From Watersipora subatra (Eukaryota > Bryozoa > Gymnolaemata > Cheilostomatida > Watersiporidae): a stretch of 64,000 nucleotides of DNA. The position numbers and the translations under genes were made by a program. The DNA lies in contig NC_088710.1 of assembly GCF_963576615.1 (NCBI RefSeq), positions 20,951,114-21,015,113 on the forward strand, given 5' to 3'. A model generated the notes under the pieces. It saw only the letters and a program-made list of their open reading frames with translations. It had not been told where the DNA came from and searched no databases. This document shows positions 8,202-53,436 of the stretch, piece by piece (position 1 is the stretch's first letter; the number at the start of each line of letters is the position of its first letter).

Positions 8202-11200
8202 CTAAAACATACAGATTCACAAAAGTGAGTATAAATCCTAAAAGTCAGAACAATATTCAAAAGTTAAACACAAACGATGAAAACCAAAACAGCGCAGCAT
8301 ACCAGTAATTTCCTTTAAAATGGGATAAACAATCAATCAAATATCCCATAAACACTTGTCATCAAAAAGACATCTAGTAGAAACTAGATTAATAAAACCT
8401 ATCAATTGTATTTAGTGCATGGCGACATGATTGCTGGTTAATAAAAGATTTGATGTTCGTTACAATAAAGTTGGTTAAAACCACGATTAAAAAAATTTAT
8501 CGTACATTTGGTAAACTAGTGTGATTTACTCTTGCAATCATTTTGTTTTTAGTACTCTTGAATATTAAAAATAAATTCAAAAATTATACTAAATACAATG
8601 TGATACTGTAAATTGATACTATTGTAGTGATTTCCCTTTTTTTATTATAACTTCAACAGAATAGTATTGCAAAAATCCCTCAGTGTCCATGCGGCTACAG
8701 CTCTTCTATTCTATTGAGGTATGATGACCAACTAGTTGACCAATGTCTCATTGTTCTAATCTGTGAACAAAAAATCTTCAGAATAAAAAGGACAACAATT
8801 ATACTTATAACAATTCATTTAGTTTTTTGTGGAATACCGTGAGCCCTACATCACTTCCTTAAAACTAAAACACTTATGCCAAGGAATGCTGGTAAGTCAA
8901 TCAAAAATCATGCAAGAAAATTCAGTGCATCATTTGACTCAACATCTCATGAGCGTATCTCATATGTATGGTACATCTCATGAGTGTATCTCATATGTAT
9001 GGTACATCTCATGAGTGTATCTCATATGTATGGTACATCTCATGAGCGTATCTCATATGTATGGTACATCTCATGAGGGTATCTCATATGTATGGTACAT
9101 TTCATGAGCGTATCTCATATGTATGGTACATCTCATGAGCGTATCTCATATGTATGGTACATCTCATGAGCGTATCTCATATGTATGGTACATCTCATGA
9201 GCGTATCTCATGTGTATGGTACATTTCTGAGCGTATCTCATATGTATGGTACATCTCATGAGCGTATCTCATATGTATGGTCACCAACAAGATTCTCAGT
9301 ATATATCAGATGAACAGCCTCAAACCATTGTAGAAAAAAACCAGTTTAAAAAAAATTTAAATCGAACCAGTTTTTAAAGCTGCATTGTTTTCCTTTGCAC
9401 GATCAATTATTTTGAGGAGTTGTCTTACTTACTCAGAGTGCCAATAGATTTTGTCGTTTGAGCGTTCCTCTCTGACATTTCAAGCTTTACCATCTGGTTG
9501 AAGGTGAGGGCCACCAGACGGAACATTAATTGCTTTACAGACTCTCCTACAATAAATATGAAATGCAAACTTGAGGCAGTTGTTTTCCAGCGAGAAAACA
9601 ACTCCTACTCTAGCAAGTTTGCAAACGAAATTTGAATTTATTGATTTCATCAATAACAAAGTTTTTGTTCAGATCACCAATAAAGCAACCATATTGAGTA
9701 CCAACTTTAGGTTATTAGCTACACAGTATTTGCTTGGCAAATAGCAGCTTTATAACAGACTTGAAAATAACAACAATAAATTTTGTTTTCATAGCTTGAA
9801 AGCTTTAGCTTCCTATGAAAATAATAACTATGATATCTATATAATGGTAAGTCCAATGTTGTCATTGCGTGTGTGTGTTAGTCTGTGCAAACTCTATGCA
9901 GTTCCACATTTTATGGCTGATTTCATTCAAACTTCACCAGCATATGTTCCCCGCCTTCAGCTAAGTCACTAAAACATTTTGTGTCAAAACTCTGCCTGGT
10001 TCCAACCACATAACTCAAGCAACGCTAGTAATCACTAGGAACAAAAACTGTCTCGCTTTAACCATAAATTATATCCCCTCTGAACCTAAACTTGACACCA
10101 TATGTTATAACGCACTTTTGCATCTGTTAAGAGTGTGTAGAAGATGATTGCTATGATGACATCATCACTTAGAAAATTCAGTTTATGACATCATCACCGA
10201 GTTATCACAAGACAAACCACTTTCACTTTAAGTCAACAGAGTACAAGCAATTATTCTTGAGAGGATATGACTCCCAAGGTTTAAATTTGGTTTCTTTATC
10301 CATAAATAAAAAAGGTAGTTTGTTAGGCCAGAGCAATGCTATCAATACACATCCGTACGGATGAAAAACAAATCCAACAAACTAACCTGTCATGGAAGAT
10401 GTTGCCCAATACTCTGCTCCAATTTGCTCTGCCAAACGCAAGGCTTCAGCCTCTGTGCTTTTATATGCAGCAGGAGACTACAAAACAATAGTAGAGAGTC
10501 AGTACACACCATTGACCCACTTAGATGTTTACAAAATATTTCTGATTATAAATATTATTATATTTTGAGGTAAAATTGTAATCATGTTGATAATATTAGG
10601 AAGAGCATTCAACCAAGTTCTTTCCTGATCTTCAAGGCAGACCGGATTACATGCACTGTAATAGCAAATACTTATGTTATAAAGAGGATGATACACTTTA
10701 AACTAATATCATTTGCAAGGGAGATAACTATATATATTACATACAAAAACAAATTTGTGTAGAAATAATTAATAATAAATATAATTAATATAATAAATAA
10801 TATTAAATAATGGTAAATAGATTTTAATACGTAATTTATGCATGAGTGATAAGCACACACAGGTGTTCAAGGAAATAACTCACTATAAATGTTTTATGCA
10901 AGGGCAATCAACTTTAATAATAGCAGAAAGAGGAGATAAATCACCACAAGCATTTTAATGAAAGGAAGACAAGTCTTAATAAATATTATAACCAAGGAAG
11001 ATAACTAATAAATATTGTATGAGGTGAATAATTTTCAAACTTTCACATCCATTTTTCACGAATATTTCCAGTTTGTAGGTCCTTCATATGAATACCCGAA
11101 ATGTTTGGTTTAAAGTTTAAATAAATCCAACAGATTGAACATAAGAAAGACACAAATAAATAGCAAACACAAAAAGCATTCAGCTCAACTCACCAGCTTG

Positions 11201-14200
11201 TCCTTTTTCATCCCAACGAGAAAGACAATTGGCTGATCAGCAGCTTTGGCAGCATCCTCATACCAGGTGCGCGCTGTTTGCAGAGTGTTCACATCACACA
11301 AATCAAACCCGACTATTATTGCTATAATACAACAACATGAATCAGTTAACTACATAATGAATAGTCTTAATAGACACAAAATAAAAGTACTTCGTTGACA
11401 GCGGATAAGGTAATAATATCTCCGAGCTAAATGGTTTCTTTTGTATGACAGACACACAACTGAGCCTGAAGGAAACTAGAAAACGTTGAAGTATCTATAG
11501 ATTTTCTGGAGGTTAGTGGTAAATTAGTGATGCATAGAACTTTAACCATTACAGTAATTTTTAATACAGCGCACAGTCAGCTAAATGTGGATTTGCTTTC
11601 TCTTACATGCCATGTTCACAGAGCATAGATCAAAACAGTTATAATTCAAAAGCAACAGGTCAAACCGGTGAACTGTGCAGTCTTCAATATGCTTGTGATG
11701 TACTGTTGAAAAATGACATGCCAATGTACAAATAGTGAAACAAAGAGCTTTGTAAATGCAAAACCAACTTAGATAAAAGAGACTCACAGTTGAACCGCAA
11801 AAGTTACGACAAGACAGGATAAATAATTTAACTACATTCAACTTTTAATGATTATTATTTTTCTATATTAACATAAGCTTCGGCAGCAATCTATGATTCA
11901 TTCTTTTTCCTTTACAAAGGCCTTTGTAGGCTATCAATGTATGAATTAAGGGGCCTTCAGCCATTTGCAATTAAGGCAGTGAAGTAAAAAGATATCTAGC
12001 TAGATTCGCCTCTTCCCAGAGCCCTTCATAATTCACAGCACTAGACATCATAATTTGTCAATATTCAGGCCGTACACGAAGCATGTAGTGGCCGTATCAC
12101 AATCTGAATTTGATCAAAAAAACTCACAGAATAAACTGGTTTGGCAAATAAGACCAGTTACAGAAAACACTACTAGATTAATAAAGAAGTACCATACTAT
12201 ACTTTTACTTGAAATTGGAAGCCGTGGACCTTGTAATCAGACAGTTAATTTAATAATTACCGGTAATAATCTCAGCACCTTCATCGAAAAGAAATACCGC
12301 TTCATCTAGCCAGGCAAAGCTAGAACTCTATGACTGGCTCAGTAATATGCCAAAAACACCCTATTCATAAAGTGCAGAAAAAGAGAGTTGACGACTATTT
12401 GTTTTATCGCAGTTACCATAGCAACAAGACTCCAAAATTTTTGCTATTAGCAGTGTTTCAATTTGTTAGAATTAGATAAATAGGGCAAGATTTCACAGAC
12501 GAAGTAGTGGGGTACTAGTTACTAGTTAATAAATTCTCTAATGATGTTGGTCTATGCTTAAACTTGTGTAGACATTAAAAGTTGCCGGCTGACTGAGTTC
12601 TTCAGACAGTCCATGGGCAATAAATAAGACGATTAATGACATTTCCGTACTACCTACTGCTTAGGGCTCAAGTCTATATGCATTTTAATTAATGCATACC
12701 CACTACGTATAACTAAACTAAGTAACTAAGCTTTCACTAAAGGATAATACAAAGCTGTTTTAGTTTATGCGCCAGGCATTGACCACCCAAGGTTCAGTTT
12801 ACGTATCATGCCATGATCACCAAAGGTTCAGTTTATGCATCATGCCATGACTACCCAAGGTTCAGTTTAAGCATCATGCCATGACCACAACAGTTGTGTA
12901 GATGTTGATCAATTCTTTCATAGAGGACAGTTAGTATTATACCTAGTTACAAAGGACTTTAGTTGAAAAATTAAAGCTAGATGCTTTTTCTTACTGCATT
13001 CAAACTGGGCATTAAACTCGGGTTACTTGACCCAATCCTAGATACTGATGTGTAATTCAACTGACCAATGATAAAAGATACAGCGTAAAAACTAACGAAT
13101 TGGGTTAAGTTAGCAGAAAAATAAGTCATTTTGGAGTTGTGCTCTCTTTTGAAGTAAACATTTGCATAACTTCCAATGCAACTTCAAGCTTAAGTGTGAG
13201 GTTTTGCTTGTCTCCGTTAAATTTTCTAATTTGATAGTGCACTTCACAATCTAGACACCCTGTGTGATTCACTGCTTCTGCTTAGAATGAATGGCAGTCC
13301 ATCTGTTGATCTTGGGTGGTCTATGGGTCTTGTGTGGTCTGTCTGACTTACCAGTGTTATACATTTGATTAGGTGTGCTTGAAGTCATTGCTCTGTCAGC
13401 CTTTGAGCCAACAAAATGTAGTTTTTCAGCTCTATTTTTCAATGCTTTTTTATTTGCATTAAATTTCATCATTGCGCCAATGTCATATATCATCAAGAAT
13501 TAACCAGAAGGGAATCACATACTATTTAGCAATCTCCCACGTGTGTTATTAAGGTAAATGTTATATTCTTCATTTTATGTGTTTTATTTTATATGTTAAC
13601 AATGGCTTCACAGATGACCATCTGTATAATTAACATACTTTCAATAATCCTTTATCGACGATCAAGTTATTGTTTTATTGTAGTTTCACGGTGTTGACAA
13701 GCATAAATAACAAATTGAATAGGATATGCACTGTGCCTCATAACCCGTATGTGACAACATAACTATGAACCAGGGGATCCGCTAAATCAATGATCCATTC
13801 AGAAGCAGCAGACCATCCAATTACATTTATAATTTATCACAGTAGAAATGACTGGTTTTAGAAGTTGCCCCCTTTTTTTAATAACACATACCATTGGCTC
13901 CTCTGTAGTATGACGCTGCAATACATCTAAACCTCTCTTGGCCAGCGGTGTCCCAGCTGTAAATACCAACAGCAGACAATCACATTAGGTCAGCATACAC
14001 CAAATGACAATAAATAAGTGACTTGACATCCCCTTCTAGGATTTTACAAAGGAGCCAAACAGTTAAATTATCGCAAAAGGAACAGTACAATTTGATGCTA
14101 AGAAAATTTGGTAATTGTCTGGATATAGCACGGCCACACATCTGATACACTTTCTCCCAGGTGCATTGAGACAACATTTTGAGACGGTAATACAAGCTCA

Positions 14201-17200
14201 TTATTTTTTATCGAATAAATAACCTTTGTTCAGAATAAAAAAATTCAATGTTTTTATCCATTTCCCATTAAACTAGTAGGTGTTGGCCTTACCCAAAAAC
14301 ATCTTAATTTGAAATTGTATATTCAATTATGAATTTATGGGTGAATGTAACAAACTAAACAATGTATTCATCACTATGCTTATCCATTTGTATAAATGTC
14401 AACTGTCGCACTTATTTCAGAAGCATTTTAATCCATTCAGTTCAACATATGATGTCACCGGATGTGCTACAGCTTGGGATTTTATAATTTTTGTAAATCT
14501 AAAGATTTTGCGTTACTTTTAATAACCCCAACGTAAAATGAATAATGACTTATATGATTTACAATTGCTATAGTCGTCACACATTGTTAGATAAATAGAA
14601 TAATTGCATTACAGTGCATTACTACATTGCAGTAGGTTACAGTACATTGCATTACACCGTATTACATAGCAGCACATCGTATTACATAGCAGCACATTGC
14701 ATTACATTGCATTACATCATATTACATCGCATTACATAGCAACCCATTACATTACAGTACATTACAGGCTACAGCACATTAAAGTTATTGCTTAGTGAGT
14801 ATCGAACTCAAATGGAGGCAAAAATGTGACTCTTGCAGTGCATACTAAGTGATAAATAAATCACAGTCACATGTATCTGTTCATCTCATGCTTTCAGTTG
14901 AGCTAATTTTGCAGCTAACTATGAGAGAGGCAGCTAACATACCAAGAACTGGTACAATATCACAAAACTTGTCTGAAAGCAGAGCATCAGTCCTTGCAAT
15001 ACGACTCTATGGTCAATTAATTTTGTTGATATGCCTGTAATTACAAATTTATCAAGGGTCTTGTTGGTTAACTACAACATACTGTAAAATTTAGACCTAT
15101 ATACATCAAGTGACACGGAACTCAACTGACAATGAAAACTAGGATTTGTCAGCACATGTCACACTTTTAAAGAATTTCTAAACATGATATAACCATGATT
15201 CATCATCAAACATCGAAGCCATATTTAACTAAACAAAATTGACTGCACAATGAACCACTGCACCATTGTTACAATAGAGTACTTTGAACTTCAGTGCATG
15301 TAATCAGGCAAGAGGAGATAATAAGCGATGGCATGAATCACGGTGTTTAACTCACATTGACTACTTGCCAACATGTAGTATTTATGACCAGTTTAAGGAA
15401 ATGCTAAACGTTGATGAACAAGTCATAGATAATGAGTCAGACCAACTAGGCTTCTCATATTTGCTCGCAGGCACCTGTAGTGATTGAATCAGCTTGTCAT
15501 AGTAAACCAACTGATATCGCATTGTGAAGTGTTTCTCAGCTAATAGGCATTTCATGTACATATTATTAGTGTTATCATATGATGCACTAGAGGTGAATAT
15601 TGTGGTAGGAGCCAGCTGGCTCGTAGCAGGACCAGCTCGGATAGGCGACCTAGTCAGAAGACGAGCCGACTTCCCACGTACGGATCGGTACAAGGCTGAC
15701 TCTGCACCTTGTGAAGCCTAACCATCCCGAAGAATATATATATATAAAATATATATATATATTCTTTGAATATATATATATTTTATATATATATATTTCT
15801 TTGAATATATATATATATATATTCAAAGAATATATATATATTTTATATACAATGTATATATATTCTTCGGGATGGTTAGGCTTCACAGGGTGCAGAGTCA
15901 ACCTTGTACCGATCCGTACGTGGGGAGTCGGCTCGTTATCTGACTAGGTCGCCTATCCGAGCTGGCCCTGCTACGAGCCAGCTGGCTTCGACCACAATAT
16001 TTTATATATATCTTATATACGAGAGCGATCAGAGAAAAAAGACTTTGAAGTACCTGGTGACTTCTGTGTACATGTTTGTATTATGATAACTATTTATCTG
16101 CAAATTTATACTCATAAACTTCAACTACGGGTTATTCTGGAGATTGCTGTGGTGAAGTAAAGAGTCAGCTGACTTCCTTTACAATACTTTGCCTTATTTA
16201 TATTCAATTTTTTATTGTGTGAAAAATATTTAAATATCAAAAATGTTTAAAATTTTAATGATTCAAAACATGTTTTAAATGTTTATTCTAGTACTTGAAT
16301 AAATTTTAAGTGCTATTGACATTACTTAAATGTAAAAGAATATTCTGAGAATCAACAATCATTATTAATGAGGGTTTGAAAAATAACTGTATAGGTGAAC
16401 TTGAAAAATAAAACAAATTGAGCCTTAGCAAATGACTCATACCACTAAGTGAACCTCATAACAGGTTTCATAGCTGGCTTTTTAAAAAGATCTGACTACG
16501 AATCTTGTTTCTCAAAATTGACCAGTCAGCCAACCTTAACAACATGAGCATGAGTAACAAAGATCTAAGCAGCAAAAAATGCTCATTATTGCTTGAATCA
16601 TCCACAGAAACAAAAGCTAATGATTAAAAAAAATTTAAACAGACAATCTTTTAGTAGCACCGACTGCATCTATGATAATAAATAGTCAGCAACTGTATTG
16701 GCTAGACTGAGACAAATGACCAATAGTAGCCTGTGTTTGAAACGAATGGCCAATGACAGAGGTGTGTTGAAAACAAATGACCAATAACAGATTGTTTAAA
16801 GGTTGACTTGCAACAAAATTCACATTACAGTTATTTGATATGAAAAGATTCACCATGTCTTACTCTGCTGTGTTGTAGGTGCCAAATATGTGGAAATGTG
16901 ATTACAAGCTCTTAAAAGCTCAAAAACGAACAGTTAATCGCAGCCACACGAGACCGCCGTAGTTTGGATTCTCTTTCCAAAATGGCTCAAATGTGACGTA
17001 GCTGTGGTAGATGGTTTTTGTTTACACTTTGACCTTATTCGTCGAAATATTTTCACAAATATACTTCACGCATTCAATAAAACCATGTCTATTGTTCTTA
17101 CGCGTCTATTTTATCGTCATTGTAATGCTGTCACTTTTAGCACTGATATCTTATAACTTACCGTAAAAATTCGTTTAATTTTTTAGCCTTAGCTTGAAGG

Positions 17201-20200
17201 AGTACATATCATTGTCTGATAATCATGACAAGCCTGTTGGTCACCTGTGATAATCGAAAAGTGCTGCAAAAATTATTTGCGAAGTATTGGGTCACATGAT
17301 CGGATTACGACTTGCCGATTAGACCAAACTGAAGCAAAACTGTAAAGTAGCGAGCATCTATATTTGATACGGGGTCTTCGGTAAAACCCGAAGTGTTTGT
17401 CATAAACTAGTGCTATGATAAGTTTTATATTGAGCTTTTTATTGGCCTTTCAATTCACGTGAGAACATCACGTGACAACACAATAAATAAATTTCATGAC
17501 TAAGTCAGAGAAATAAAGAGATTCCAATCTACGGCGGCTTTTTGTTTTTGAGCTTTTCAGAGCTTGTAATCACATTTCCACATATTTGACACCTACAACA
17601 CAACAGAGTAAGACATGGTGAATCTTTTGATACCAAATAACTGTAATGTGAATTTTGTTGCAAGTCAACCTTTAAAACAAATGACTAATGGCAAACTGTG
17701 TTTGATTTTTTATTTAATCTATTACTGTAATAACAAGCGACTATTTTCAGTCGCTGGTATTTAGTCTGTACAACTAATTTCAACAGGAAATAGATAGCTA
17801 TTTCCTGTTAATGTAATGTTGGATTCTAGTGGTCAACAAACATTACTCAACAGTCTCAACATGATAAGCCATACATTATGACTTATCATGTTGAGACTTA
17901 AAAAGGTTCGAGTATGAAATATAACCCTACATATCAGCAATATAAAGCTGGCTGAGACTGATTAAGATTGAGCTATAAGATGGCGTCCAATGGCTGTCAC
18001 TCTAAGATCAATAAGACTGTTTAAAAGAACCGAAAAAACCATAAACTTCCATGCTTGAAGGTTGAGTCAAATGTGAGTTAATTGATTGCTCTATCTGTGG
18101 AGTTATCTTCTCTAAAAGTAATCGGTGAGGAAAATCACACATTATTTATTTTATATACACAAGTAGCCTTTTGATTTGCTAGACCATTCTATCCAACACT
18201 GCAGATATAACTATTTTAAAGCGTCTGTAATAAAAGGAAATGACATCATGTAAAGCTTCAAAGGTGGTTATATAGGCCAATATTTTACAGCGATGGTTCA
18301 GCTCACATTTCTGACAGAAAGTTACTGAAATACGATAGTCTGTCACTAATCGTTACTTATCATGACGATAAGTTGACCATCACGGAAATTTTATTAAACG
18401 ACTGCAAGTACACAATAACCAATAAAATTGTTTTCAACCCAGAGCTTCATGAGTCAACCCACAACTAGTGCTGGCTTTAATTGAAAGATAATGAGCCTGT
18501 ATGAAATGTCGACTAGCAAATATGAATAGCCTGTGTACCCGCTAACACAGATTCCCTTAAACATAGGCCTGCATTGTCACTTCTTTCAACAGAATAAACC
18601 AAATGCTATCTCTTCAATACAAGTACAAGTTAAGACCTCGTAAAATACTCACAGTTGTACAGTAAAATACTCACAGTTGTAAAGTAAAATACTCACAGTT
18701 GTAGGGTAAAATACTCACAGTTGTACGGTAAAATACTCACAGTTGTACGGTAAAATACTCACAGTTGTACGGTAAAATACTCACGGTTGTACGTTAAAAT
18801 ACTCACAGTTGTACAGTGAAATACTCACAGTTGTACAGTGAAATACTCACAGTTGTACAGTAAAATACTCACAGTTGTAAAGTGAAATACTCACAGTTGT
18901 ACAGTAAAATACTCACAGTTGCACAGTAAAATACTCACAGTTGTACAGTGAAATACTCACAGTTGTACAGTAAAATACTCAGCTGTACAGTAAAATACTC
19001 ACAGTTGTACAGTAAAATACTCACAATTGTGCGGTAAAATACTCACAGATGTACGGTAAAATACTCACAATTGTGCGGTAAAATACTCACAGTTGTACAG
19101 TAAAATACTCACAGTTGTACAGTAAAATACTCACGGTTGTACAGTAAAATACTCACAGTTGTACGGTGAAAGGCAGCGACATTACATTGAACTTTTCCAC
19201 TTCAAAATCAACTCCGATAGTTGCCTTGTAGTCCTTATCAAACAGATCGTGACAGAATCTATAAAACCAAGTGACCTCATTATTGGTCACTTCCTATAGC
19301 TACCTGGCTCTGGACACGAGCCAGAAGTAAACAGATTATAATCCTAATAGCACATGGTGTGTACCATTTGGTCACATGTTTCAATTTTTAAAGTAATCCA
19401 AAATTTAGTGGAGATATAATGTTTAGTGGTCGCCAACCATTATAATCAAAGTATTACTAAGCAGCGCCCAGGCAGTTTAACATGCCGTGAGAGATTGTCA
19501 GGAGTGCCAAAAAAGCGCAGAGAAAATGTGTTTGCATAATTATTCTGATATTCTGGAAGATGGGTGGTTGGTGCAGGTGTTAAAGTATCAGTCTACCAAA
19601 CTGAATGTCACGAATTCAAAGTTTATTCCAATCTCTAACCCTGGCTTCAGACATGCACGGCTCTTATTATAGTAAGTATAGTAATCTATTATATTATATA
19701 AAATTACTAAGGAAACAATAGTATTTATTTTTTAGTCTTTGATTTTATTTAGTTTCATGGCCTGTTGCTGCCTATATTCACATAAATAATTAATTATTCC
19801 AGTGAATTAAGAGCGTCTTATTTCTATTTTTCTAAATATTAGCCACATGATAGTATTTTATATACCTATTACTTTCATAATATGTATACTTTCATTTTAT
19901 ATATATATGTATTACTTTTATAATATGTATATTCCTGATCATAATATTCGCAAGAACTACGTAAAATCACTGATTTGTGATTCATTACGAGTAGCCACAG
20001 AACCATAACCATGTCTAGAGGTAAAAGCTCTGCTCCTCCACCTGTTAGGCAAAGCAGCGCCATGACAATAAAATTATCAATGAGCTAGTTACATGCTGAC
20101 TTATCAGAGGTGCTCAGGACAAATAGTGAGTAGACTGGAAACTTACCAATTAGGAGCCTTGACTAAACATACAAAAGAGCATGGTACAAAACATTGAACG

Positions 20201-23200
20201 AGACTCTATATTTTATAGTTGTTGTCAAACAAATGTTTGCTGTTGGGTGCCAAGATGATATTTGTTACGGCGTTGTCATGGAAATGTTTATGGTTATTCT
20301 ACAAACCTAAAATTTATCGTTTGGTTGTCAAGGTAAAGCTTGTTGTTAGTTTGCCAAGGTAACGTTTGTTGTTAAGTTGTGAAGGTAAAGTTTGTTGCGA
20401 GGTTGTCAAGGTAATGTTTGTTTTTAGGTTATCGAGGCATTGCTTGTTGCGAGGTTGTCAAGGTAATGTTTGTTCCTACATTGTGAAAGTAGTGTTAGTC
20501 GCTGTTGTGAAGGTAATGTGCGTCAATACATAGGGTTTGTTTATCGGTTGCTAAGGAAGACTATCCTGCCAAAATAAAATGATGCAGTCAAGTATTGCAG
20601 AGATAGAAAAGAGGCATAAATATAAAATAATACTTGATAAAGCATTTAAAACTTCAACATTGTAAGATGGCTGAAAATTTAACACTTTATGAATCACTGA
20701 CCTGTTCACAAAAGACGTTTTACCTATTGCTACATCCCCGACCACCACAGCTTTGCATAATTTGACTCTAAAATCAAACAATAATAGATGACTCAGTGCT
20801 TAGCCAGTAATCACAACAATGGTAAATGCAATAACCTGAGTTCTCTATTGAAAGCACACACTTTAAAACACAAATCGAACACATGCTAAGAGGAACTAGC
20901 AACGACTGTACTAACCCAATATTAGTTCTGTCTCTTTGACATGCAGACCTGACGATGGGGTCATAATCCATTGCTTTGTAGGGAGTTGTCTGTACATTGT
21001 ATGGCTGTAAGAACAGTGAGAGTGTAAAACAAGCCTTCAATGATGAAAATAGCTGCAGATGTTATACCTCGACACACACAGCCACATATCCACTTAAGAT
21101 CACCTCAACAGGTAAATGGACAACGTAGAATTTGAGAAAATCTATGTTTATTATATACATGCAGTAATTTCAAACATTTCAGAGCTTCTCAAATCACTCG
21201 AGTTTTGCAATTGAAAGTACATGTAAATAGGTTGGTGAAAATGTAATGTACATGTAATTCGTGAAGTTATGCCATGTATTGGCATCTCTATCTCCAAACC
21301 TACGTGTCACCGAACCTACATTTATATTCTTCTGTATCTAACGTACAGCAACAATAAAAATATTGTTTATAAATTAATTTAATAGATAATTAATAGACTT
21401 TATTAATTTAGATTCTTGGATATAATTTAATTATTCCAATTTGGTTTAACATAAATTTATGTTTAACATTTTTTAACTAATTCACAGTCGTACATAGACT
21501 ACACCCTACCTATTAGTGATTTACCATAGGCGACTACAGTCAAAATTTAATACAGATATACACCTCAACACCTCATACACCTCAACCAAATCTCCACTTA
21601 GGATCGTCTCACCATGCAAGCATACAACATGACGTATACATTGAGCAAATATATTACATTTTAAAAACTTCTCAAAAGACGTGAAAAAGAGAGTAAAGAG
21701 GCTGACGAGAAGTAAAATAGACCATAAACCAATATAAAACTAATAAAATACAACAGCTGAGTTACTTTCCAGTTTACTTAGTCTAAATTAGAGTAAGTTA
21801 CGCAACATATATCCATCCTCTAGTTCTGAACCTAGGCTATGCCAAGTTTACGCTTCTGTTTATGTGGGAGAGATCATAAGGTGGGCCCATCAAATGCAGA
21901 TCCGTAATGATTGTCCGCACAATTAGTGTGAAATGTTGGGAGGTGATTTAATTTAATAAAATAATGCTGGTGAAGACTTATAATCAAATTTAAATTTAAT
22001 TTAGAATAGATAATTGATTCGTTGGAAAAATATAAAGTATATTGCCTAATTAAGAAATATTGCATAATTGTGTTTTCCATTGACGTCTAATGGAGGCATG
22101 ATTTAATATTGACCTCTAATACTAAATAGACGCACGCAAATTGTAATCTCGGACATGAGCAAAATCTTACTTGACATTTACGTAAAATTTTAGATTTTTT
22201 GACAATTGCATGCTAGTGCCCAAGGGGATTTGACAATCATAAGTGCTCTGAATCGTTGAACATTGGTATGTAGGTCCTGACAACCTCTCAGCACCTGCTT
22301 TTCGCGTGCAAGGCTAACCGTCGCTTTAGTACTTGTGCATTTGCGTGTAAGTACTGAGGGCTTCTTTGCACCAGTATGCAAGTGCTGAAGCGTTCGTGAC
22401 ACCTATGTGCAAGGGCTAAGGCCCTTTTGACACCTATCTGCAAGTGTTGAAGCCTGCTTGACACCTATAGGCAAGTGTTGAGGTCCTTTTGACACCTGTA
22501 TGCAAGTACTGATGCTCTCTTGACACATGTATGCGAGTTCTGAGGCCCTATTGACATCTGAATGCAAGCGCTGAAGTCCTTATGACACCCGCATGTAAAT
22601 GCTGAAGCCCTTTTGACAACTGTATACAAGTGTGCCCGCCCTATTGACACATGTACATGTATACTAGTGCTTAAGAGTACTCTGTACATACACAATTGAT
22701 TTAGTCTTGACAATTATGCACAAAATATTGTGTGACATTTGCAACAAGTACTACAAGCTCCTTGACATTCATATCTGTGCTAGAGATGAACTATGTAGAT
22801 TGATACACGGCATACTCAAAGATGTTCATATGTGAACACTTCATTTTTGTGCTCAAAAGAGTGAAACAAACTAAGGCTACATTTATTCTAATTTCAGTTA
22901 ATGTAACTATACAGCATGTAATTGCATCCATTGCCTTAAAATTAATACGACATTATTTTAATTCCTACTAATTTACAACTAAGCCTAGAGCCAACTTAGA
23001 TCTAAACTAACATTAATGTAGATGGCTCATATAATGATCTAATACATTTACAGTGCTTTCAAATGAAGGCACAGAGACTAACCTTGATTGAATGGCTTAG
23101 CATTTCACTTAATCAAATTAAAGAACCAGGGTTTCCCTCAGTTGAAGGGTCACTCATTTTAAATATTTTATCAGAATGTTTAGATATTTTTCTATCATTG

Positions 23201-24039: not shown

Positions 24040-24935
24040 AATATAACAAGGCAGATTAGTTATTAAATAACAATGTAGATTAATTATTATATAACAATGT
24101 AGACTAGTTATTATATAACAATGTGGATTAAATATTATAAAACGATGTAGACTAGTTATTATATAACAATGTGGATTAAATATTATAAAACAATGAAGAA
24201 TAATTATTATATAACAATACAACAACTTAGATTAATTATTATATAACAATGTAAATTAATTATTATATAACAATGGAGATTAATTATTATATAACAATGT
24301 AGACTAATTATTATATAAAAATATAGATTAACTATTATATAACAATGTCGACTAATTATTATATAAAAATATAGATTAACTATTATATAACAATGTCGAC
24401 TAATTATTATATAAAAATATAGATTAACTATTATATAACAATGTAGACTAATTATTATATAAAAATATAGATTAACTATTATATAACAATGTAGACTAAT
24501 TATTATATAAAAATATAGATTAACTATTATATAACAATGTAGACTAATTATTATATAAAAATATAGATTAACTATTATATAACAATGTAGACTAATTATC
24601 ATATAAAAATATAGATTAACTATTATATAACAATGTAGACTAATTATTATATAAAAATATAGATTAACTATTATATAACAATGTAGACTAATTATTATAT
24701 AAAAATATAGATTAACTATTATATAACAATGTAGACTAATTATCATATAAAAATATAGATTAACTATTATATAACAATGTAGACTAATTATTATATAAAA
24801 ATATAGATTAACTATTATATAACAATGTCGACTAATTATTATATAAAAATATAGATTAAATATTATATAACAATGTAGACTAATTATTATATAAAAATAT
24901 AGATTAAATATTATATAGCAATGTAGATTAAAGAT
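24040..24935. repeat. 48 bp (2 x 24) AT-rich satellite array
   Basis: About 890 bp of 24 bp half-units, mostly alternating two types (TATATAACAATGTAGACTAA and TATATAAAAATATAGATTAA with ATTAT/CTAT spacers), so the higher-order period is 48 bp. It lies 250 bp upstream of the Rab34 start codon. Since 48 is a multiple of 3 and the unit has no stop on the minus strand, it produces a spurious 179-codon open frame. Confidence 0.95.
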
Positions 24936-29798: not shown

Positions 29799-30825
29799 AT
29801 ATTTACTCTTTGGGTCCATAATATATTTGACCAACATTTGGTGTTAAAATAGTGCTTTCTTGATGTGGTTGCAGTTTGTACAAGTTAACTTTTAGAACAT
29901 TTTAATGATCTAATTTCTATCTAAGCGTTGAATCGGGTGAAGTGTAAAAGATTTGCTGTTGAAACATCAATTGAAGTTTTAAAAATTAAGCCCACTAAAA
30001 TCTGTTACTTTTACAGTTGCCCACTGTTACTAAAACCTTTTATTAATTTTGAAATACCACCGTGATATGTACGGCATCTTCTTAAATAAGGCAGCGGTGA
30101 TGTATGGGTTCATCAAATTTTCAATACTCACATGACTACAATTAACAGAGTTCCTGCAAAAACTGCTGAAAATCATTCACTTTCACTATCTTGGCAACGC
30201 TGACAGATGCAGGTAGGTTGAGGGGAAAACTATTTTCATAGTTTGGTTTAAAAATAAGTCATCTGCCATTGAGCCAACCTTTAGAATAAATGAATATTTA
30301 ACTAGTTATCCTGATTCAAACACTTCAAATTGAATTAGGTTTTTATGTTGACAAACACCACGATTTTAATATCTATTAGGTTTGCATCACCACAATTAGT
30401 CTTTTGATGGTTATTTTCACATCGGTTTACTTCAAAACAAAAGTTGGTAAAAAAAAATTTGATTTACTAATGAAGTTAATAAGCCATTATTCAAGGCCTT
30501 TACATGTTTGTAGTTTTTATAGTAAAACATCAAAACATTTGTTTTCACTACAGCATTGTTTTTATAAGCTGTCCACCAATGCCAACAATATATTCGATAT
30601 ATATTCCACAGATATTCGTTACAATGTGTCCATTCTGAAAGTTCTAAAAATAAAATACTTTATAACATCGATGGATATCCATGGTTTCCCAAGAGCTAAG
30701 CTTAGGCATTGGTAAAAATGTTAGTTAGCTTTTTGTGACATTTGAAGTATTCAAGTTTGACCCATACCTACCCGCAAAGATATACCACCGATTTCGCTCG
30801 GGAGAGAAACAATAGTGCTTACTTT
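29799..30825. other. RPL23A 3' flank
   Basis: Contains the presumed RPL23A 3' UTR, though no AATAAA lies close to the stop codon. The 103-codon open frame at 30404-30715 shows no domain. Confidence 0.35.

Positions 30826-42043: not shown

Positions 42044-53436
<11,393 letters not shown>

Follow-up and report, generated by a model that had tools for sequence, protein, structure and literature searches.

The human gene IFI6 contains a minisatellite that, going by the title of Turri et al. 1995 and by the papers citing it, is said to provide multiple splice donors. Two downstream units of this repeat are reportedly used as donors (PMC4526556). In lancelets, minisatellites that duplicate exon/intron boundaries have been named "mirages", and splicing is reportedly left undisturbed by them (PMC3087553, PMC3902484). 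They were described in Adh3, with units of 10-72 bp, and in the globins BflGb6 and BflGb9, where the two haplotypes of BflGb6 reportedly hold 6 and 3 units (PMC3087553). PGBD5 and TnC were added to the list (PMC3902484), and arrays at boundaries have been proposed as seeds of new introns (PMC3087553). In human genes located in segmental duplications, variable internal tandem repeats at exon-intron boundaries reportedly alter splicing (PMC2812944). The metallothionein repeats of earthworms were considered as a further parallel and set aside, as the available part of the report presents intronic minisatellites and describes no array at a boundary (PMC12783039).

A donor-spanning array in a Rab gene

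The window, i.e., the whole 64-kb stretch of DNA that was analysed, carries a Rab-GTPase gene on its minus strand. Five exons were placed by homology and GT/AG borders (Table 1), separated by introns of 1,443, 5,200, 2,570 and 716 bp in this order. Joined together, they give a single open frame with a conserved Rab core, running on to YWATSSMT. The product matches the Pfam family Ras (PF00071, E 1.4e-36) and the NCBIfam model small_GTP, so that a Ras/Rab G domain, as expected of a Rab GTPase, runs across the exons in one frame. In the PDB, Rab proteins are matched with a top E of 4.5e-28; among the best 60 of 806 matches, Rab23 comes first and Rab6 next, and no Rab34 or Rab36 is listed. The gene may belong to the Rab34/36 subfamily. 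Pattern searches of the window revealed no N- or C-terminal Rab exons. Ten proteins of the window were compared with Pfam: two exceed the curated cut-off (Ras and zf-C4) and one gives a weak match below it. Rfam and ARAGORN returned no matches and no genes, respectively, in the window, which has a G+C content of 34.7%.

Table 1. Positions of the Rab exons, the splice-site arrays and their landmarks in the window.
Feature	Position	Strand	Basis
Rab exon with P-loop (GDVAIGKT), upstream	20702..20767	-	joined open frame
Rab exon, 102 nt; final 13 bases are the start of repeat copy 1; ends CAACT	19157..19258	-	
Array-bearing Rab intron, 5,200 bp; array at its 5' end	13957..19156	-	
Minisatellite of 22 bp, 24 copies, straddling the exon/intron border into the intron	18640..19171	-	TRF and unit listing
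Donor 1 (GTGAGT), sole donor keeping the frame open	19151..19156	-	
Copy 9, 20 bp; GT of the donor removed by a 2-bp deletion	18974..18993	-	
Rab exon after the array intron; starts C TGG GAC ACC (WDTAGQER)	13892..13956	-	
Rab exon	11194..11321	-	joined open frame
Rab exon	10387..10477	-	joined open frame
Decayed donor-spanning array after NR4A exon 50672-50450, six copies recognised	50069..50449	-	
Array of 42 bp multiplying the acceptor of NR4A exon 48987-48906	48980..49182	-	TRF and copy alignment

The array sets in about 13 bases before the exon border, within the final bases of the exon, and extends 0.5 kb into the intron. TRF assigns it a period of 22, 24.3 copies and 91% matches. The spacing of the units is 22 in 22 of the 23 steps and 20 in the remaining one, at copy 9. 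When the 22-mer was searched with up to 3 mismatches, 23 matches were found in the window, every one inside the array, for an expectation of 0.01. An earlier note on this DNA had described a minisatellite amplifying a splice donor about 24-fold, with a unit that straddles the exon/intron junction. Both points are confirmed: 24 units are present, 23 of them with an intact GTGAGTATT donor, and copy 1 begins in the tail of the exon. The statement that every copy has CAACT was slightly overstated. The exact CAACTGTGAGTATTT occurs in 18 of the 24 copies; the exon tail reads CAACC in copies 2 and 18, CAATT in copies 5 and 7 and CATCT in copy 6, and copy 9 also deviates. Outside the array, one GTGAGTATT is found on the minus strand, at 30131 in unrelated sequence. 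The same Rab intron also contains a fold-back element (15596-16001) with 158-nt arms that are 92% complementary, 90 nt between them and an AT-repeat core, which looks like a MITE-type insertion.

After CAACT, the exon border continues as GTGAGTATTTT. Splicing from donor 1 leaves the frame open: the junction splits a Leu codon, CT being completed by the C of the downstream exon (C TGG), which is directly preceded by TTTACAG. Across this junction (19157/13956), the Rab product aligns without gaps in two PDB alignments. From each of the later intact donors (22/22), a stop follows immediately after FTVQL, ahead of WDTAGQE. The exon model holds, with an exon ending in CAACT, the next one at 13956 and five exons in one open Rab frame, and the earlier note is right that the later donors run into a stop. 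The mRNA made from later donors would presumably be removed by nonsense-mediated decay (NMD). Both alternatives offered in the note, pressure to use donor 1 or NMD-targeted isoforms in amounts that follow the repeat number, agree with the sequence.

It is most improbable that the exon ends elsewhere, that the gene is dead or that the array is an assembly error. The N- and C-terminal exons that escaped the pattern searches would fit a dead gene or a misplaced exon end, and 5 of the 353 other GT sites in the array intron reach at least the score of donor 1 with a position weight matrix (PWM). However, the five exons share one frame, are bordered by GT and AG and encode a conserved Rab core. The copies are also not identical, and a deletion is private to one of them, unlike what a simple expansion artefact would leave.

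What could single out the first donor

The donors were compared by the PWM, by the energy of the duplex with U1 and by RNAplfold accessibility in two window settings. None of these three measures gave donor 1 an intrinsic advantage. Its PWM score is 2.6, and the 9-mer that it carries is present, counting donor 1 itself, in 18 of the 23 donors. The scores are 2.81 for copies 5 and 7, 1.8 for copies 2 and 18 and 1.14 for copy 6. Pairing with U1 amounts to -7.4 kcal/mol for donor 1 and -7.7 kcal/mol for copies 2 and 18. Ranked from the lowest upwards, the predicted accessibility of donor 1 comes 7th and 10th among the 24 in the two settings. By the PWM, the array donor scores below the other four Rab donors that were placed, and only one of these pairs more weakly with U1.

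Since donor 1 shows no edge in these measures, position must decide if it is the one used. A preference for it would have to come from the shortest exon, from the nearest acceptor and enhancers and from being transcribed first, as we infer from exon definition, which would be the expected mode for a 102-nt exon beside a 5.2-kb intron. Some leakage to later donors of the array is plausible. The locus is a natural competition experiment, in which 23 nearly identical donors follow one another at intervals of about 22 bp and only the first is productive, and donor counts in RNA would show how position alone determines the choice of a donor.

The best explanation, to which we give a probability of about 75%, is a neutral array of the mirage type, in which the additional donors act for the most part as silent decoys, apart from some leakage to NMD-targeted mRNA. 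A segment covering the 3' end of the Rab exon and the start of the intron would have been tandemly duplicated into the intron, up to about 24 copies. Growth in this direction is suggested because the exonic part encodes Val-Gln-Leu, leading into the WDTAGQ of the Rab protein. The spliceosome would most likely use donor 1, the first to be transcribed and the closest to the acceptor and enhancers of the exon itself, and the other 22 intact donors would be mostly silent in the intron. The array would be tolerated, without being maintained for a function. Its copy number should differ between individuals, judging from minisatellites in general and from the lancelet mirages. This explanation is based on the array, its register, its donors and the immediate stops, all observed directly, and it is supported by the lancelet genes of like structure with reportedly undisturbed splicing. 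Against it stands the fact that no sequence feature favours donor 1, whose use is assumed from its position.

If donors 2-24 truly competed with donor 1, the share of NMD-targeted mRNA would rise with the number of copies, and the length of the repeat would tune the Rab output. Such a dosage device is unlikely, even though donor 1 is closely matched in strength by the 22 intact donors behind it (copy 6 being weaker, 1.14 versus 2.6), which all lead to the same immediate stop and have a counterpart in the two downstream IFI6 units reportedly serving as donors (PMC4526556). For DOK7, it is reported that the intron-proximal of two close donors is preferred, a preference that would here favour the stop-making donors (PMC5585400). 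In DOK7, however, this donor exceeds the other in strength as well, and when two copies of it were given, the upstream copy was used more, according to the same report (PMC5585400). The lancelet mirages, which reportedly leave splicing undisturbed (PMC3087553, PMC3902484), also speak against the device. Moreover, if the cost were strong, one would expect a shorter array or more than one broken donor among the 24.

Variation among the copies

Among the 23 full copies, 9 of the 22 columns of the unit vary, none of them in donor positions +1 to +9, so that 9 of the 13 columns outside this block are variable. When columns are permuted, the probability that all nine variable columns fall outside is 0.023 for +1 to +6 and 0.004 for +1 to +8. 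The longest invariant run of the unit has a length of 10 (P = 0.007). A test based on events gives P values from 0.011 to 0.00014 for +1 to +8, depending on how events are counted, and the signal persists after allowing faster change at CpG-type steps. These statistics concern one array with at least 10 events, or 19 counted as runs, and copies that share a history by duplication. Seven other arrays submitted to the same test gave P values of 0.02 to 0.93, with 3 to 11 usable copies each. The value of 0.02 was obtained from 4 copies of the NR4A acceptor array, and the array starting at 24041 contributed 3 of its approximately 18 copies, which makes these arrays weak controls.

Plain neutrality predicts that the donor block varies like the rest of the unit, whereas +1 to +9 are invariant. 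The invariance is a hint of something other than neutrality, and only a hint because the copies of one array share their history. The eight positions pairing with the 5' end of U1 (GUGAGUAU) are identical in all 23 full copies. Together with the permutation P values of 0.004-0.023, this would agree with repeated U1 snRNP sites kept by selection, for instance for recognition of the exon or for blocking premature polyadenylation within the long intron. Given the single array, its few independent events, the relatedness of its copies and control arrays with P values of 0.02 to 0.93 from few usable copies, a platform of this kind is extremely unlikely. Both ideas could be combined in a heritable rheostat, in which U1 snRNP sites kept by selection divert a copy-number-dependent share of the Rab pre-mRNA to the NMD-targeted form; we regard it as very unlikely. 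If it were true, the donor and acceptor arrays of the NR4A gene would be further cases of splice-site dosage in this lineage.

Boundary arrays in the window and known systems

The NR4A gene lies on the same (minus) strand, and its DNA-binding domain matches Nurr1 with an E of 1.9e-41. The exon preceding the decayed donor array ends in ATGGGCAGACACCACGGAGAGG, followed by GTGAGT, and four of the six decayed intronic copies cross the GT of the donor. This array, which is missing from the TRF list, reaches a sum score of 81. None of 500 shuffles (mean 9.1, maximum 48) and none of 488 other stretches attains this value. Its best single copy gives P = 0.077 against all random positions, the support coming from the copies jointly. 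All six candidate later donors lead to a stop. In the acceptor array, four acceptor copies are located upstream, three with TTTATCACAG and a fourth that has lost 2 bp. The former lead to a stop and the latter, with an exon start at 49029, to an in-frame insertion of 14 residues. Two NR4A acceptors are thus open, and either could be used as judged from the frame.

In all, 24 junctions were examined, i.e., 13 acceptors and 11 donors (five and five in Rab, eight and six in NR4A), all of them located through homology together with GT/AG borders; the set excludes the donor that follows NR4A exon 6 as well as undetected exons. Boundary arrays occur at three of them, on both donor and acceptor sides and in two genes: the Rab donor, the decayed NR4A donor and the NR4A acceptor. 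When the comparison is restricted to random positions outside the surroundings of TRF arrays, the P values of the array junctions are 0.0010, 0.0221 and 0.0019, the next best junction being the NR4A acceptor at 43402 (P = 0.0635). A score of at least 21 is reached at 2 of the 24 junctions versus 3.7% of random positions (P for at least two = 0.22), and a score of at least 14 at 3 of the 24 versus 7.7% (P = 0.28). Over these 24 junctions of one 64-kb window, no enrichment of arrays at splice junctions above the window background was found.

The TRF arrays of the window merge to 17 and cover 5.3% of its bases. Long minisatellites are located at 24041-24931 (48 bp x 18.4) and at 8942-9281 (31 bp x 11), and no exon was recognised at the ends of the latter. 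An array of three 38-bp copies (46216-46330, minus strand) stops about 50 bp short of the acceptor of the exon for the NR4A DNA-binding domain (46165), the acceptor being excluded. In a window so rich in repeats, some tandem repeats will hit exon borders by chance, and the sample is small. The arrays at the Rab donor and at two NR4A junctions, found without enrichment at junctions, favour the tolerated, mirage-type array and point to a general repeat process, not to a peculiarity of the Rab gene.

As in the lancelet mirages described in several genes, the units join the end of an exon to the end of an intron, carry splice signals and occur on the donor and acceptor sides (PMC3087553, PMC3902484). 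The units straddle the boundary and many copies keep their AG/GT signals, which is the anatomy of a mirage. The Rab unit of 22 bp falls inside the range of 10-72 bp reported for Adh3; unlike the BflGb6 mirage with its reported 6 and 3 units, the Rab array has 24 copies and 23 intact donors (PMC3087553). It is a real and unusually long example of a kind of structure already known. Three mirage-type arrays occur within 64 kb. One of them has decayed, and in another a deletion would allow a duplicated acceptor to be used in frame, which is relevant to the suggested role of such arrays as seeds of new introns (PMC3087553).

As in IFI6, the Rab repeat unit supplies a donor at the end of an exon. 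The alternative donors of IFI6 reportedly lead to isoforms, whereas the later Rab donors give no usable protein isoform, each running into a stop (22/22). The repeats of human segmental duplications lengthen exons or form new introns, and the available part of that report does not speak of the donor itself as what is amplified (PMC2812944). The remark of the earlier note that few cases of an amplified donor are known is fair, with the reservation that the phenomenon has a name in lancelets and a human precedent in the donor array of IFI6. The Rab array is a new and striking example of a phenomenon already described, and not a new kind.
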